From: Campylobacteraceae bacterium
GTDB taxonomy: Bacteria > Campylobacterota > Campylobacteria > Campylobacterales > Arcobacteraceae
Length of the DNA stretch: 64,000 nucleotides
Direction: 5' to 3'
Assembly (NCBI GenBank): GCA_013373175.1
Contig: JABXII010000011.1
Location: forward strand, 62,001 to 126,000
How positions within the stretch are numbered: the first letter of the stretch is position 1; each line of letters begins with the position of its first letter. A model generated the notes under the pieces. It saw only the letters and a list, made by a program, of their open reading frames with translations. It did no database searches and was not told the origin of the DNA. The position numbers and the translations under genes were made by a program. This document shows, in pieces, positions 13,529 through 34,908 of the stretch.

Positions 13529-13627
13529 TTATTTGTCTTTATTTTTGTAAGATTTAAAAAATCCAATTGCAGAGATTATTGCAACTCCTGCAATAAATAT
13601 TAGCATTGCTAAATCAAGAGGTTCCAT
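13529..13627 (-). CDS. 32-aa single-pass membrane micro-protein between rlmN and gltX
   Basis: A small ORF in the gap between rlmN and gltX: ATG at 13625-13627 (minus strand), TAA at 13529-13531. The product begins MEPLDLAM, has one strongly hydrophobic span of about 17 residues (LIFIAGVAIISAIGFF) and ends with a positively charged tail (KSYKNKDK), a typical inner-membrane anchor with a cytoplasmic basic end. The first five codons overlap the end of rlmN in another frame, and AAGGAAAC just upstream serves as Shine-Dalgarno, so it is translationally coupled. Function unknown. Confidence 0.7.
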   Translation of the reverse strand: MEPLDLAMLIFIAGVAIISAIGFFKSYKNKDK

Positions 13628-14681
13628 TTGTTTCCTTTTCTTTAAGTTGACCACATGCCGCTGAGATATCTAATCCTTTAGATTCTCTAATTGTACATAG
13701 TAAACCTCTACTAGTTAAATATTCTTGGAATTTTACCATATCATCCCTTTGTGGTCTTTGATATGATGTACCAGGATAAGGATTAAAATAAATTAAATTT
13801 ACTTTTGCCTTTATTCCATCAAGAAGTTTTAGAAGTTTTTGTGCAGATGCAATATCATCATTTTTATCTTTTATAACTAAATATTCAAACATAACTTTTT
13901 TTCTTGCATCAACTGGAAACTTTCTAACAGCATCAATAATTGATTTTATATTGTATGCTTTATTCATAGGAATAAGTTCACTTCTTAATTCATCATCAAC
14001 TGCGTGAAGTGAAATTGCAAGTTGAATTCCTAAATCTTCATTTCCAAGTTTTTCTATTTTTGATGATAATCCAGAAGTAGATACAGTTTGTCTTCTTCTT
14101 GATATTGCAAGTCCATCAATTTCAGAGAATACCTTTACAGAATGAACAAAATTCTTATAGTTATCAAGTGGTTCACCCATTCCCATAAAGACAATATTAA
14201 GTGTTTTGTTCTCTGCAATTTCATTATCTTTTTTAATTTGAACAATTTGATTTACTATTTCTCCAACTGAAAGGTTTCTAACAAAACCACCTTTTGCAGT
14301 TAGACAGAAAGTACATCCAACTTTACATCCAACTTGAGTTGAAATACAAACAGTATATTTTTCTCCTCTTTCAATTGAACCATCTTCATTTATCTTTTTT
14401 TCTTTCATAAGTAATAAAACAGATTCAACAGTATGTCCATCTTTTAATTGGAAAAGATATTTAATACTTCCATCAAGACTCTTTTCTTTTTTAACTATTT
14501 TTAGAATATCTATTTCATAGTTTTCTTTTAATTGTTCTTTTAAATCATTTGGAATATTTTTCATCTCATCATAAGATGTTACATATTTTTTGTATATCCA
14601 ATTGTAAACTTGCTTTGCTCTGAAGCTTGGTTTTAACTTTTCTTTTAATTCATCTAATGTGAAATCATAGATTGTACTCAT
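13614..14681 (-). CDS. rlmN: 23S rRNA adenine-2503 C2-methyltransferase
   Basis: A 355-aa radical-SAM enzyme that methylates C2 of A2503 in 23S rRNA and A37 of some tRNAs. The radical-SAM cluster motif CKVGCTFC follows VG at about residue 118. The GEPL segment (MGMGEPLDNY) and a C-terminal cysteine region (AACGQL, near residue 346) are the expected SAM-binding and methyl-transfer elements. Length and N-terminal domain match the family. It is upstream of a 32-aa membrane protein and gltX in the same direction. A long intergenic region with a parS site precedes it. Confidence 0.95.
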   Translation of the reverse strand: MSTIYDFTLDELKEKLKPSFRAKQVYNWIYKKYVTSYDEMKNIPNDLKEQLKENYEIDILKIVKKEKSLDGSIKYLFQLKDGHTVESVLLLMKEKKINEDGSIERGEKYTVCISTQVGCKVGCTFCLTAKGGFVRNLSVGEIVNQIVQIKKDNEIAENKTLNIVFMGMGEPLDNYKNFVHSVKVFSEIDGLAISRRRQTVSTSGLSSKIEKLGNEDLGIQLAISLHAVDDELRSELIPMNKAYNIKSIIDAVRKFPVDARKKVMFEYLVIKDKNDDIASAQKLLKLLDGIKAKVNLIYFNPYPGTSYQRPQRDDMVKFQEYLTSRGLLCTIRESKGLDISAACGQLKEKETNGTS

Positions 14682-14823: not shown

Positions 14824-14937
14824 TTAATATTGTTTCTCGAACTCTATGGCTACTTCGTATACCATCTCGTTTTCAACAGTTCTTGTGCTTGCACTCTCTG
14901 TGAGAAAAATATGAAGCAGTTCATATTTTCTTAACAT
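14824..14937 (-). CDS. possible 37-aa ORF abutting parS
   Basis: An open frame of 37 codons with ATG at 14935-14937, immediately next to the parS site, and TAA at 14824-14826. The peptide begins MLRKYELLHIF and ends EFEKQY, with charged, helix-prone composition. No clear Shine-Dalgarno precedes it: the sequence upstream is the parS palindrome itself. The segment is somewhat GC-richer than the rest of the intergenic region, which could reflect coding, a structured site or a dispersed repeat. I list it as a weak candidate. Confidence 0.25.
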   Translation of the reverse strand: MLRKYELLHIFLTESASTRTVENEMVYEVAIEFEKQY

Positions 14938-14953
14938 TGTTTCACGTGAAACA
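14938..14953. other. parS chromosome-partition site 1
   Basis: The 16-mer TGTTTCACGTGAAACA is a perfect palindrome identical to the conserved chromosomal parS consensus bound by ParB/Spo0J. It lies in a 370-bp intergenic region that also holds several other palindromes. Chromosomal parS sites usually cluster near oriC, so the window is probably in the origin-proximal part of the chromosome. parAB are not in the window. Confidence 0.93.
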
Positions 14954-15021
14954 CCGTAAAAAAAATGTAAATAGTTTTACATTTTTCGGTGTTGAAAGTG
15001 TAGTGGTGTGCAAGCTTGCAC
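14950..15021. other. hairpin and 14-bp palindrome beside parS
   Basis: Next to parS is a long imperfect hairpin: AACACCG at 14950-14956 pairs with CGGTGTT at 14987-14993, and inside it 14961-14971 pairs with 14976-14986 (11 bp) around a TAGT loop. A few bases further is a perfect 14-bp palindrome, GTGCAAGCTTGCAC, at 15008-15021. Neither has a T-run and no gene ends close by on the plus strand, so they are not plain terminators. The rest of 14682-14937 contains another hairpin (arms around AAAATATGAA and TTCATATTTT, about 14910-14930) and an inverted TGTTTCTC/GAGAAACA pair about 200 bp apart. Confidence 0.5.
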
Positions 15022-15051
15022 CCATGTAACTAGAGAAACATTTGAAAAGTA

Positions 15052-15588
15052 TTACTTGATAATTTGTTTTTCTAGTAAATATGAAGTTAATTTCTTCATT
15101 GCTTCTTTATGATTTTTCAAGAAGTCTTCGTGAGCATTTTCATTTGTATAATTTGTAATAACAAAGATTCCAGCAACTGGAATTTCAAACTCTTTGGCTA
15201 CTTGCAAAATAGAGTAGAATTCCATATTCTCTGCACCAACTCCATACTCATTAAAGTTTTTTGCTAGCTCAAAGTTTTTAGAAATATAATTAGAAGAATT
15301 AATGATAGTATCATTTCTTACCATTTTATTTTCAGACTCTAATACATTGTCTAAAGGTGTATAAGAGTTATCATCTAAAAATGATAGTTCAATATTAGCT
15401 GCTCTTTTTGATTCTACTATATCAAAGATTTCATGATTTCCATAGCTTCCTGCACTTCCAATAAAAAGTAAAAAATCAGGTTTGTCAAAAAGACATTGAC
15501 GAGTAAGATTAATTGCTGTTTCAATTAATCCTACTCCCATCTCTTTTGCAAAATTGAATCTTTCATTTCTACCTGCGCAGATTATCAT
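15052..15588 (-). CDS. nucleoside phosphorylase/nucleosidase-family protein
   Basis: A 178-aa member of the purine nucleoside phosphorylase/MTA-SAH nucleosidase fold. The segment FIGSAGSYG (about residues 40-50) corresponds to the phosphate or ribose loop, and GVGAENMEFYSI (about 115-126) to the conserved glutamate segment that binds ribose. It is shorter than the usual 230-aa nucleosidases, lacking N-terminal strands, as in the shortened homologues of this phylum. Substrate is uncertain. It overlaps the upstream SIMPL gene by 1 nt, so the two are co-translated. Confidence 0.7.
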   Translation of the reverse strand: MIICAGRNERFNFAKEMGVGLIETAINLTRQCLFDKPDFLLFIGSAGSYGNHEIFDIVESKRAANIELSFLDDNSYTPLDNVLESENKMVRNDTIINSSNYISKNFELAKNFNEYGVGAENMEFYSILQVAKEFEIPVAGIFVITNYTNENAHEDFLKNHKEAMKKLTSYLLEKQIIK

Positions 15589-19837: not shown

Positions 19838-20803
19838 ATGGATTTCAATAAAATTGCAAGTGATGTATTAGAGATTGAAGCTAATGAACTATTATTAGCT
19901 GCAAAGAATATCAAGGATTTTGATATAGAAAAGGCAGTTGATTTAGTAGTTTCTTGCAAGGGAAAACTTATTGTTACAGGAGTAGGGAAGTCTGGTTTAG
20001 TTGGAGCTAAAATTGCTGCAACACTAGCAAGTACTGGAACATCATCTTTTTTCTTACATCCTACAGAAGCTATGCATGGTGATTTAGGAATGATAGGTAA
20101 AGATGATATCGTTTTAGCAATATCTTATAGTGGTGAAAGTGAAGAGTTAATTCAACTCCTTCCTCACTTAAAAAGATTTGATATCCCATTAATAGCTATG
20201 GCTAAAACTAAAGAATCAACTCTTGGAAAATATTCAGATTTCTTTATTAATATTTCTGTTTCAAAAGAGGCTTGTCCTTTAGATACAGCTCCTACTTCTT
20301 CTACTACATTAACTATGGCTATGGGAGATGCATTAGCTGTTTGTTTAATGAAAAAAAGAGATTTTAAAAAAGAAGATTTTGCTTCATTTCATCCAGGTGG
20401 TAGCTTAGGGAAAAAGCTTTTTGTAAAAGTTGATGACCTATTAAAACGTGATAATTTACCTATTGTTTCACGTGAAACAAAGTTAAAAGATGCCATTGTA
20501 ATTATGAGTGAAGGTAGACTAGGAAATGTACTTATTGTTGATGAAAACAATAGATTAAGTTCTGTTCTTAGTGATGGTGATTTAAGAAGAGCATTGATGT
20601 CAAATGAGTTCTCTTTAGATTGTGAAATAGAAGACATATCTACTAAAAATCCAAAAACAGTAAAAGATAAAAATATCTTAGCAAGTGATGCACTAAGAAT
20701 TATAGAAGAGTATAAAATCCAAGTGTTAATAGTTACGGATGAAGAGGGTAAAGTTGAAGGAATTTTACATATTCATGACCTAATTGAAGCAGGAATTAAA
20801 TAA
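19838..20803 (+). CDS. kdsD: arabinose-5-phosphate isomerase (SIS + two CBS domains)
   Basis: A 321-aa KpsF/GutQ-family enzyme converting ribulose-5-phosphate to arabinose-5-phosphate, the first step to Kdo for lipopolysaccharide. The SIS sugar-isomerase domain is about 30-165 (VTGVGKSGLVGAKIAATLAS and SYSGESEEL are the phosphosugar loops; His in TEAMHGDLGM is the family histidine). Two CBS domains follow (about 200-320). AAGGA 7 nt before 19838 fixes this start rather than the in-frame 19802. A perfect parS lies in frame inside the gene, in the linker just before the first CBS domain. Confidence 0.94.
   Translation: MDFNKIASDVLEIEANELLLAAKNIKDFDIEKAVDLVVSCKGKLIVTGVGKSGLVGAKIAATLASTGTSSFFLHPTEAMHGDLGMIGKDDIVLAISYSGESEELIQLLPHLKRFDIPLIAMAKTKESTLGKYSDFFINISVSKEACPLDTAPTSSTTLTMAMGDALAVCLMKKRDFKKEDFASFHPGGSLGKKLFVKVDDLLKRDNLPIVSRETKLKDAIVIMSEGRLGNVLIVDENNRLSSVLSDGDLRRALMSNEFSLDCEIEDISTKNPKTVKDKNILASDALRIIEEYKIQVLIVTDEEGKVEGILHIHDLIEAGIK
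20464..20479. other. parS chromosome-partition site 2, inside kdsD
   Basis: A second perfect 16-bp TGTTTCACGTGAAACA, flanked by one further complementary pair. It is translated in frame as part of I-V-S-R-E-T within KdsD, so the amino-acid sequence of this linker may be constrained by the site. It is 5.5 kb from the intergenic site at 14938-14953, a spacing typical of the parS cluster bound by ParB near replication origins. Confidence 0.92.
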
Positions 20804-23326: not shown

Positions 23327-24741
23327 TGAGTTTTGAAAAAGTTTATGTTCTAGATACAAATATTTTACTTGAAGATGCAACAAATATTTTTAAGTTAAGT
23401 GATGAAAAAAAGAATTTAATTGTTTTACCTGAAACAGTTCTTGATGAAATTGATAGCAAAAAAGGTGGCTTTGATGAGATAAACTTCCAAGCCAGAGAGT
23501 TTGCAAGAATTTTAGAAAATTCAAAAATTATTGATACAAAGAAAGAAGAAAATTTCAAAATAGTACGATTAGAAATTCACAGTCAGAAAGAGGCTATCAT
23601 AGATATTATTTCATGTGAAGAGTATGCAATAAATACTAAAAATGTAGCTTTAAATATCATAAATGATAGAAAAATTCTAGAAGTAGGACTTTTTGCAAAA
23701 AGACATTATGATGAAAACTCAACTTTCCTTTCTTTGGATATTATGGCTAGAACTAGAGCAGTATCTTTAGATATAAATACTGATTCTTTAATTGGCTCAA
23801 ATCAAGAAGAGTTTAATTATGAGTTTATAAAAACTGTTGAAATAAAGTTTGAAGATACAGAGCATTTAGATAATACATTAATCACTGATTTAGATAGTGA
23901 ATATGCACCCCACAATTTTAACTATTGTTTTAAAGTAAAAAGTTCAGACCAAGTTATTCTTGCTACAGTTCAAAATAAAAGAGTAGTTTTATTAGATGAA
24001 GGGGAAATGCGAAATCAAATAATCACTCCTTTAAATAAAGAACAATTATTCTTCTCTTGTGGAATACTTTCACATTTTTATAATGTACTAATAGTTGAAG
24101 CAAAAGCAGGTTCTGGTAAAACCTTACTTGCTTTAAGTGGGGCTTTAAAGTTAATTAGACAAAAAAACTATCAAAGAGTAATCTATATTAGAAACTCTGT
24201 AGAATCACTTGATAAAGGTGAGGATGTAGGATATTTACCTGGTTATGAAGAGAAATTTAGAATTTATAATCATCCTCTAATGGATAGTTTAGACTATATA
24301 GTTAGAACTGAACATAAAAGAAGACAAGCAAATAAAAAGAATGCAGAGAATATTCAAGAATTAGATGATCAAGAAGTGACTCAAAGAATAGAGCAAATGA
24401 TTCAAAACTATGGAATTGAAACAATGTGGGTAGGGGAAATGAGAGGAAGAACTCTTTCTAATGCCTTTGTTATAATCGATGAAGCACAAAATATGTCAAA
24501 TAAAACTATGCAAATGGTTTTATCAAGGGTTGATAATACTTGTAAAGTTGTAATTCTAGGAAGTAACAAACAAATTGACAACTTCTATGTAAATAAACAT
24601 ACAAATGCACTAACAACACTTTTAAAATCTACGAAAAATGAAAACTCACTTGTAAATATCTTTGCAATTAAGTTACAAAAAGTATTAAGAGGTCCAATCA
24701 CAGAGTGGGCTGAACAAATATTTACTTCAAAAAATAGATAA
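23326..24741 (+). CDS. PIN-domain plus PhoH ATPase (PhoH2-type)
   Basis: A 471-aa fusion: N-terminal PIN RNase domain (about 1-150; YVLDTNILLED and PETVLDEID hold the acidic metal ligands) and C-terminal PhoH-type ATPase/helicase domain (about 235-465; Walker A in AKAGSGKTLLAL, Walker B in FVIIDEAQNM, then the sensor segment VVILGSNKQID). This PhoH2 architecture is associated with sequence-dependent RNA cleavage and unwinding in other bacteria. Here it is 1 nt from hemJ in a tight operon that includes rluB and rarA. There is no separate antitoxin ORF immediately upstream. Confidence 0.9.
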   Translation: MSFEKVYVLDTNILLEDATNIFKLSDEKKNLIVLPETVLDEIDSKKGGFDEINFQAREFARILENSKIIDTKKEENFKIVRLEIHSQKEAIIDIISCEEYAINTKNVALNIINDRKILEVGLFAKRHYDENSTFLSLDIMARTRAVSLDINTDSLIGSNQEEFNYEFIKTVEIKFEDTEHLDNTLITDLDSEYAPHNFNYCFKVKSSDQVILATVQNKRVVLLDEGEMRNQIITPLNKEQLFFSCGILSHFYNVLIVEAKAGSGKTLLALSGALKLIRQKNYQRVIYIRNSVESLDKGEDVGYLPGYEEKFRIYNHPLMDSLDYIVRTEHKRRQANKKNAENIQELDDQEVTQRIEQMIQNYGIETMWVGEMRGRTLSNAFVIIDEAQNMSNKTMQMVLSRVDNTCKVVILGSNKQIDNFYVNKHTNALTTLLKSTKNENSLVNIFAIKLQKVLRGPITEWAEQIFTSKNR

Positions 24742-30036: not shown

Positions 30037-30112
30037 TGGTGACCATGATTGGACTTGAACCAACGACAACTACGATGTCAACGTAGTGCTCTACCAACTG
30101 AGCTACACGGTC
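30037..30112 (-). tRNA. tRNA-Val (anticodon GAC)
   Basis: Read on the minus strand, GACCGTG opens the acceptor stem and pairs with CATGGTC. The D arm is GCTCAGTTGGTAGAGC. The anticodon stem CTACG/CGTAG encloses the loop TTGACAT, giving anticodon GAC. The T arm contains GGTTCAAGTCC. The discriminator A and an encoded CCA follow. A valine tRNA for GUC/GUU codons. Confidence 0.96.
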
Positions 30113-33327: not shown

Positions 33328-34908
33328 TTAGCTCATGATACCTTTAATCATGAAGAAAATAGCAGCAGATAAACAAGCAGCAGCAGGAACAGTAATAACC
33401 CACGCAGCAATAATCTTTTTTACTGCATCTCTTTTTACGTATTTAACTTTTTTAGCTAATTTGAAATCTCTTTTTTCTTGTTTTACTTGCTCAACTTTTT
33501 CTTCAATAGCTTTATAAAGTTCAGCAATTCTAATATAATCAGATTTCTTTTTCTCTTTTAATTCTTCTAGTTCTTTTAATTCATCTTCAAATTCATCAAG
33601 AATTCTTTTATCTTTTTTAAACTTCTTTCTTGTGTCAGCAATAAATTTTGATTCTGATGAATCTAGGAACTCTCTTAAGAAACCAACACCAAAAACACCA
33701 CCAACTGCAATGTGAGTTGAAGATACAGGAAGTCCAAGTTGAGAAGCAATAATTACAGTAATAGCAGCAGCCATTGCAATAGCAAAAGCTCTTATTTGGT
33801 CAAGTTCAGTAATCTCTGAACCAACTGTTTTAATAAGTTTTGGTCCATATAAAGCAAGACCAACTGCAATACCAACAGCACCAACAGCCATAACCCATAG
33901 TGGAATATCAACTTTTGAGTGAATACCGTTATTCATTACAGCATCATTAATAGCTGCTAAGGGTCCAATAGCATTTGCAACATCATTTGCCCCATGAGCA
34001 AAAGAAAGTAAGGCAGCAGCAAAAATAAGTGGAATAGTGAATAAAGAATTGATACCTTCTCTATCATTTGAAATCTTCTTAGCAGCTTTTTTAATAAGAG
34101 GTTTAACAAAATAGTAAACTGCAACTGCAATAACAATACCAATTCCTGCAGCAGTTAAGAAATCAAGTTTAATGATTTTTTTAACACCTTTTAGAATTAA
34201 ATAAGTAGAGAAAGCCCAAGACATTGCAGCAACTAATATTGGAACAAACTTTTCAGCAGAAGGGATGAGGTCCTTTTTGAAGATAATGGTTCTTTTAATA
34301 AAGTATAAAAAACCAGCAGCAATAATACCACCAAGTATGGGCGAAATAATCCATGATGCAGCAATTTTACCCATTGTTCCCCATGAAACAATTGCAAAAC
34401 CAGCAGCAGCAACACCTGCACCCATAACTCCACCTACAATAGAGTGAGTAGTTGAAACAGGAGCTCCGATTGATGTCGCAAAGTTTAACCATAAAGCAGC
34501 AGATAATAAAGCTGCTGTCATTGCCCAAATAAATATTTCTGGCTCAGAGATAAGGGCAGGGTCAATAATACCTTTTTTGATTGTTTTAACAACATCCCCT
34601 CCAGCTATAAGTGCACCTGCAGCTTCAAATACAGCGGCAATAACAATTGCCCACATTAAAGTCATAGCTTTTGAACCAACTGCTGGACCAACATTGTTTG
34701 CAACATCATTTGCACCAATATTCATTGCCATATATGCACCAAATACTGCACCAATGATTAGGAATGTATTATTTGGGATATCTCCGTGTGAAGTATAACT
34801 CCACAGAAATACTAAAACAACGAATAAAAGTGCTAATGAGAATTTAGCAAGAGTTGGTAAAGTCTCATTTGTTGCCTTTTCAAACTTGTGTATGGTTTTT
34901 ATATCCAA
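33328..34908 (-). CDS. pit: PiT-family inorganic phosphate transporter
   Basis: A 526-aa inner-membrane phosphate permease. The two duplicated family signatures are present: GANDVANNVGPAVGSKA (about 65-81) and GANDVANAIGPLAA (about 305-318). There are about 11 spans, and a charged coiled-coil insertion (about 415-490, many K and E) lies in the loop before the last two spans. The start is TTG at 34908 (AAGGG 6 nt upstream). A bulged hairpin lies in its leader at 34945-34979. Such transporters take up metal-phosphate complexes by proton symport. Confidence 0.92.
   Translation of the reverse strand: MDIKTIHKFEKATNETLPTLAKFSLALLFVVLVFLWSYTSHGDIPNNTFLIIGAVFGAYMAMNIGANDVANNVGPAVGSKAMTLMWAIVIAAVFEAAGALIAGGDVVKTIKKGIIDPALISEPEIFIWAMTAALLSAALWLNFATSIGAPVSTTHSIVGGVMGAGVAAAGFAIVSWGTMGKIAASWIISPILGGIIAAGFLYFIKRTIIFKKDLIPSAEKFVPILVAAMSWAFSTYLILKGVKKIIKLDFLTAAGIGIVIAVAVYYFVKPLIKKAAKKISNDREGINSLFTIPLIFAAALLSFAHGANDVANAIGPLAAINDAVMNNGIHSKVDIPLWVMAVGAVGIAVGLALYGPKLIKTVGSEITELDQIRAFAIAMAAAITVIIASQLGLPVSSTHIAVGGVFGVGFLREFLDSSESKFIADTRKKFKKDKRILDEFEDELKELEELKEKKKSDYIRIAELYKAIEEKVEQVKQEKRDFKLAKKVKYVKRDAVKKIIAAWVITVPAAACLSAAIFFMIKGIMS

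Follow-up and report, generated by a model that had tools for sequence, protein, structure and literature searches.

The spacer between rlmN and a nucleosidase-like gene carries a 16-bp palindrome set among other inverted repeats, which raises the question of whether it is a chromosomal centromere site, whether it would be the leading one, and what the structure around it is. The 16-bp palindromic parS consensus is common to the ParABS (Soj/Spo0J) systems of Bacillus subtilis, Pseudomonas aeruginosa and Caulobacter. Within the window, by which we mean the whole 64,000-nucleotide stretch of DNA analysed here, the 16-mer TGTTTCACGTGAAACA occupies positions 14938..14953 (site A, intergenic and unstranded) and shows no mismatch to that consensus. 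It lies between rlmN (13614..14681, minus strand, with RlmN_N and Radical_SAM domains) and a gene of the phosphorylase superfamily (15052..15588, minus strand, PF01048), to which we give mqnB as a working label. The end of the rlmN start codon at 14681 and the stop of the nucleosidase-like ORF at 15052 delimit a spacer of 370 bp.

A pair of perfect sites near the origin

The initial annotation had read this 16-mer as a parS, and the 16-mer is indeed real, but a second perfect parS at 20464..20479 (site B, unstranded, likewise with no mismatch), about 5.5 kb from the first, had been overlooked. No other perfect copy exists in the 2.76 Mb genome (38 contigs), for which Markov models of order 1 to 3, derived from the window, give an expectation of 0.00024-0.00029 exact copies per 2.76 Mb; with no mismatch and a copy number far above chance, the identification of site A as a parS holds. 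When up to two mismatches were allowed, three further matches appeared in the genome, two of them inside the window. The window matches at 23421 (in phoH) and 40072, with two mismatches each, and at 34375, with three, were set aside as parS candidates; no 2-mismatch matches are listed at those places in 15 genus relatives, and one 2-mismatch match occurs in phoH of locus L069.

Across the genus both sites are kept in all 16 genomes, separated by 5.4-5.6 kb and with the 14-bp core intact, and in the family as a whole 87 of 104 genomes carry at least one site at no more than one mismatch. The core of site A, GTTTCACGTGAAAC, is perfect in every one of the 16 genus rlmN-nucleosidase spacers, which are 52-638 bp long and in whose flanking columns, taken singly, the most frequent base has a share of 0.38-0.93. 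Sister genomes thus keep the site in place, as had been envisaged: it stands between homologues of rlmN and the nucleosidase gene in all 15 genus relatives.

A location near oriC had also been proposed, and the relatives bear this out. The origin distances come from them, the genome's own dnaA being on a separate contig (C24). Distances between the sites and dnaA span 33-177 kb in 26 of 27 single-contig relatives, or at most 5.7% of genome length, in a tabulation that leaves aside G094 (sites 69-76 kb from coordinate 1), the 1-mismatch sites of G032 (47.8 kb) and G083 (distant, at 1.51 Mb), all two-mismatch sites and multi-contig genomes. The GC skew agrees in the one complete relative for which it was computed (G056, 20 stretches), with a sign change at the dnaA end: it stays about zero or positive over roughly the first 1.1 Mb from dnaA, after which it is mostly negative.

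The genome encodes a canonical ParA and a canonical ParB, adjacent on contig 12. The best solved match of this ParB is the Helicobacter pylori protein (4umk, E 1.4e-69), and in the alignment R159, N164, K190, R215 and E218 (numbering counted by hand), the five parS-contact residues given for H. pylori ParB (PMC11229316), are identical in the two proteins. Two weak ParB-like domains occur elsewhere in the genome (L037 at C25:51758 and L038 at C3:86964), and a parS-like site with two mismatches (C25:48015) lies 3.7 kb from the former.

Other palindromes are present in the region of site A, so one might ask whether the 16-mer is palindromic by chance or serves as operator for a different regulator. 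We regard this as extremely improbable, given the roughly 0.0003 copies per genome expected by chance, the conserved pairing with site B and the presence of a canonical ParB. Instead, we are confident that sites A and B constitute a pair of origin-proximal chromosomal parS sites of Arcobacteraceae, putatively loaded with ParB, with the flanking repeats falling outside the minimal centromere. Extrapolating binding, clamp loading and segregation at both sites from the ParABS family, a ParB dimer would bind the parS palindrome, close as a CTP clamp and then slide into flanking DNA; ParA would move the ParB-parS complex, which would probably also recruit SMC, and the origin region would segregate first because of this ParA-driven movement. 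The likeness to ParABS extends to the same 16-bp palindrome, the few copies, the origin-proximal location and the chromosomal ParA-ParB. Such a pair is largely expected, as ordinary bacterial centromere sites; the new information lies in the kdsD partner and in a structured repeat at zero gap from site A.

Codon constraint in kdsD and the choice between the two sites

Site B lies inside a SIS-CBS sugar-phosphate isomerase gene (19838..20803, plus strand; SIS at residues 39-168 and two CBS stretches, the best at 264-318), which we take to be kdsD from this domain make-up. There it spans the codons GTT TCA CGT GAA ACA, that is, V210-T214. The site is inside kdsD in all 15 genus relatives fetched, and among the 84 family genomes whose kdsD was examined the core is perfect in 63, a close variant in 16 and missing in five, so that 79 have the core or a variant at the orthologous position. 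Outside the family none of 90 Campylobacterota loci has a match at four mismatches or fewer, the best having five, and a phylum-wide kdsD parS was consequently ruled out.

A protein-coding location calls for an alternative in which selection acts on the peptide VSRET, which is conserved in most family members, and there is no DNA site at all. To compare codons, we picked the carriers by this peptide and not by DNA, which gave 59 distinct carriers among 72 distinct sequences. The arginine codon is CGT in all 59, even though CGT accounts for 3.9% of the arginine codons in 34 window ORFs and AGA for 88%. Furthermore, of 141 conserved positions in the 59 carriers seven have an invariant codon, and GTT, TCA, CGT and GAA account for four of these; the carriers are related by descent and these counts are therefore not independent events. 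In genus g6 the kdsD site of two genomes reads GTTCCATATGGAAC, still a perfect palindrome, both halves having changed jointly with the amino acids following, and at the 90 loci outside the family, where the site is absent, ordinary residues are found. Selection on the peptide is thus a very unlikely explanation; the fixed CGT, set against its rarity among arginine codons, indicates that selection acts on the DNA at site B. In P. aeruginosa nine of ten predicted parS sites are reported to be inside coding sequences (PMC4368675). What differs here from ParABS as generally described is that two perfect sites are 5.5 kb apart, the codons of the kdsD site are constrained throughout the family, and the intergenic site adjoins a structured repeat.

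Site A, or its core with one mismatch, was found in genera g1, g3, g4, g7, g10, g15, g17, g18 and g20, and a variant, GTTCCACGTGGAAC, is present upstream of rlmN in one g12 genome. In the genomes fetched from g2, g5, g16 and g19 the partner site is on the opposite side of kdsD, and on the rlmN side the 19 genomes searched yielded no additional core with at most one mismatch, this side having been read from the kdsD strand in 18 of them (G028 being the exception). The initial annotation had suggested that site A might be the main nucleation site. This does not fit well with a site B that is equally perfect and kept across more of the family, nor with the missing rlmN-side core in those 19 genomes. 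That site A leads and the kdsD site is secondary seems doubtful to us: site A has an intergenic position and no mismatch in the window, and in G060 it is perfect while site B has one outer mismatch, but in G054, G055 and G057 it is site B that is perfect and site A that has outer mismatches, and site B is kept in more genera while its partner shifts place. As the two copies are equally perfect in this genome, a main site is not distinguishable by sequence. The distribution across genera nevertheless suggests that site B is probably the anchor, with site A as its partner in several genera including this one.

The structured repeat beside site A

The hairpin next to the parS, the 14-bp palindrome and the 370-bp gap that the initial annotation described are all real, and so is the richness in palindromes; however, the structures are repeat copies, and this repeat is dispensable for the parS. 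The repeat unit is about 87 nt long and has two hairpins, and inverted copies face each other across site A. The right copy (14954..15043, minus strand; 98.6 bits with model R1 and 50.5 bits with model R2) adjoins the parS with zero gap and contains hairpin 1, whose stem is the 14-bp palindrome GTGCAAGCTTGCAC (15008..15021, unstranded), and the adjacent hairpin 2. The left copy (14828..14937, plus strand; 43.1 bits with model R1, nhmmer E 1e-15) is inverted relative to the right one, degenerate and interrupted by an insertion, and ends at the parS. The right-hand hairpin has a folding energy of -17.3 kcal/mol on the plus strand (z -4.7) and -15.9 on the minus strand (z -6.1), and its outer stem includes the last four bases of the parS, while the left-hand hairpin spans 14898-14940. 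Fifteen aligned copies yield two hairpins that comprise 21 pairs, with 96% of cells paired. Changes on both sides occur in seven of the 21 pairs, and none of 500 shuffles attained the covariation score; the structure had been derived from the same alignment. The number of double-change pairs was reached by 20 of the 500 shuffles and that of further pair types by all 500, so these two measures give the structure no support. No RNA family of Rfam was matched in the spacer; the window's sole Rfam match is a tRNA gene at 30040-30112 (minus strand).

Genome-wide, the 15 matches of at least 60 bits all fall in the rlmN-mqnB spacer, with the nearest copy at zero gap from the parS, the model behind them having been built from spacer copies. 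A dense generic repeat was ruled out, since R1 gave no match with E below 0.01 outside that spacer when applied to the window together with 40 related loci (651 kb). With model R2, built from dispersed copies and none from the spacer, we found 121 copies in all 39 family genomes searched, with 1-11 detected per genome. Seventeen of these copies, from 14 of the 39 genomes, accompany a parS and in most cases leave no gap to it; they belong to g1, g12, g15, g17 and g20 (the genes around the G103 copy being taken from its sister G100), and a parS-adjoining repeat is also found in g4. In five of the 16 genus spacers the parS core is kept with no repeat detected, which indicates that the repeat is not required for parS persistence.

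P. aeruginosa ParB is reported to bind half-parS sites (PMC10419367), and the dispersed repeats end in TYTCAY, which is similar to the half site GTTTCAC. The difference is that an exact GTTTCAC was found in only one of 68 dispersed-repeat tails, so that exact half-parS tails are unsupported. The weaker TYTCAY tail ends 43 of the 68 copies compared with 132 of 5796 control windows, and 24 of 40 among the copies fetched after the idea arose; the 68 include duplicates (e.g. L270/L292 and L283/L295), two site A copies (L321 and L322) and the out-of-register L280. These tails are compatible with a composite intergenic centromere in Arcobacteraceae, in which a parS would be formed and maintained at the tail-to-tail junction of two inverted repeats with half-parS-like tails, the dispersed repeats seeding new ParB sites. 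We consider this improbable; if it were true, the repeats would perhaps shape neighbouring ParB loading.

A better candidate, and in our judgement a fairly probable one, is that the repeat is simply terminator-like or REP-like and adjoins site A by chance. Its make-up of A-tract, stem and T-tract, the dispersed copies in all 39 genomes searched, the several copies after groEL-like gene ends, and the five of 16 genus spacers in which it was undetected all speak for this, while the parS-associated copies (17 of 121, from 14 of 39 genomes, most at zero gap) and the tail similar to half a parS speak against it. The repeat is hairpin-forming and dispersed, and in the examples inspected it lies outside genes. 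A simple terminator scan that required three or more GC pairs and a loop of 3-8 did not call the spacer hairpins, because their stems are AT-rich; a T run is present there. REP and BIME elements are short hairpin-forming intergenic repeats, characteristically of high copy number and linked to a RAYT transposase, and sometimes occur as inverted pairs or tandem arrays; the repeat described here is likewise short and hairpin-forming and sometimes an inverted pair or tandem array, but differs in its low copy number, with 1-11 detected per genome. A terminator-like or REP-like role is thus the most likely one. Dispersed copies were seen directly after the ends of groEL-like genes in several genera (L263, L290, L318, L319, L326 and L329). 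At L057:9573-9988 a tandem array of about seven shortened 60-bp copies is found next to site A.

Relation to other centromeres

The parS pair is a known kind of site, and the unusual part is the repeat adjoining site A. The 3parS locus of megaplasmid pAMI4 is described as non-coding parS repeats with recurrent neighbouring sequence types (PMC9040568). Compared by description, it shares with site A a parS in non-coding DNA with recurring neighbour sequences, but it belongs to a plasmid repABC system. The zero-gap repeat raises the question of how new parS sites arise. Arcobacteraceae gain a defined, putative centromere pair, and kdsD offers a clear case in which selection on DNA overrides codon usage in a sugar-phosphate isomerase gene. 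Searches of open-licence PMC listings turned up no paper on a parS of Arcobacter or inside kdsD, and the two locations may be new.

The half-site variants provide a natural series for the evolution of ParB specificity. H. pylori belongs to the same phylum and has the closest solved ParB (4umk); its parS is given as TGTTCCACGTGAAACA (PMC11229316), with one half-site reading TTCC. Among the places listed here, G069 is the only genome in which all sites carry this variant: its three sites (L242, at 3576, 4647 and 9679) all have the H. pylori-like sequence TGTTCCACGTGAAACA, as if ParB preference and sites had changed together. In two g3 genomes a further parS-like sequence, TGTTTCACATGAAACA, is present inside rarA (L235:8944 and L236:8971), which gives these genomes extra intragenic sites.
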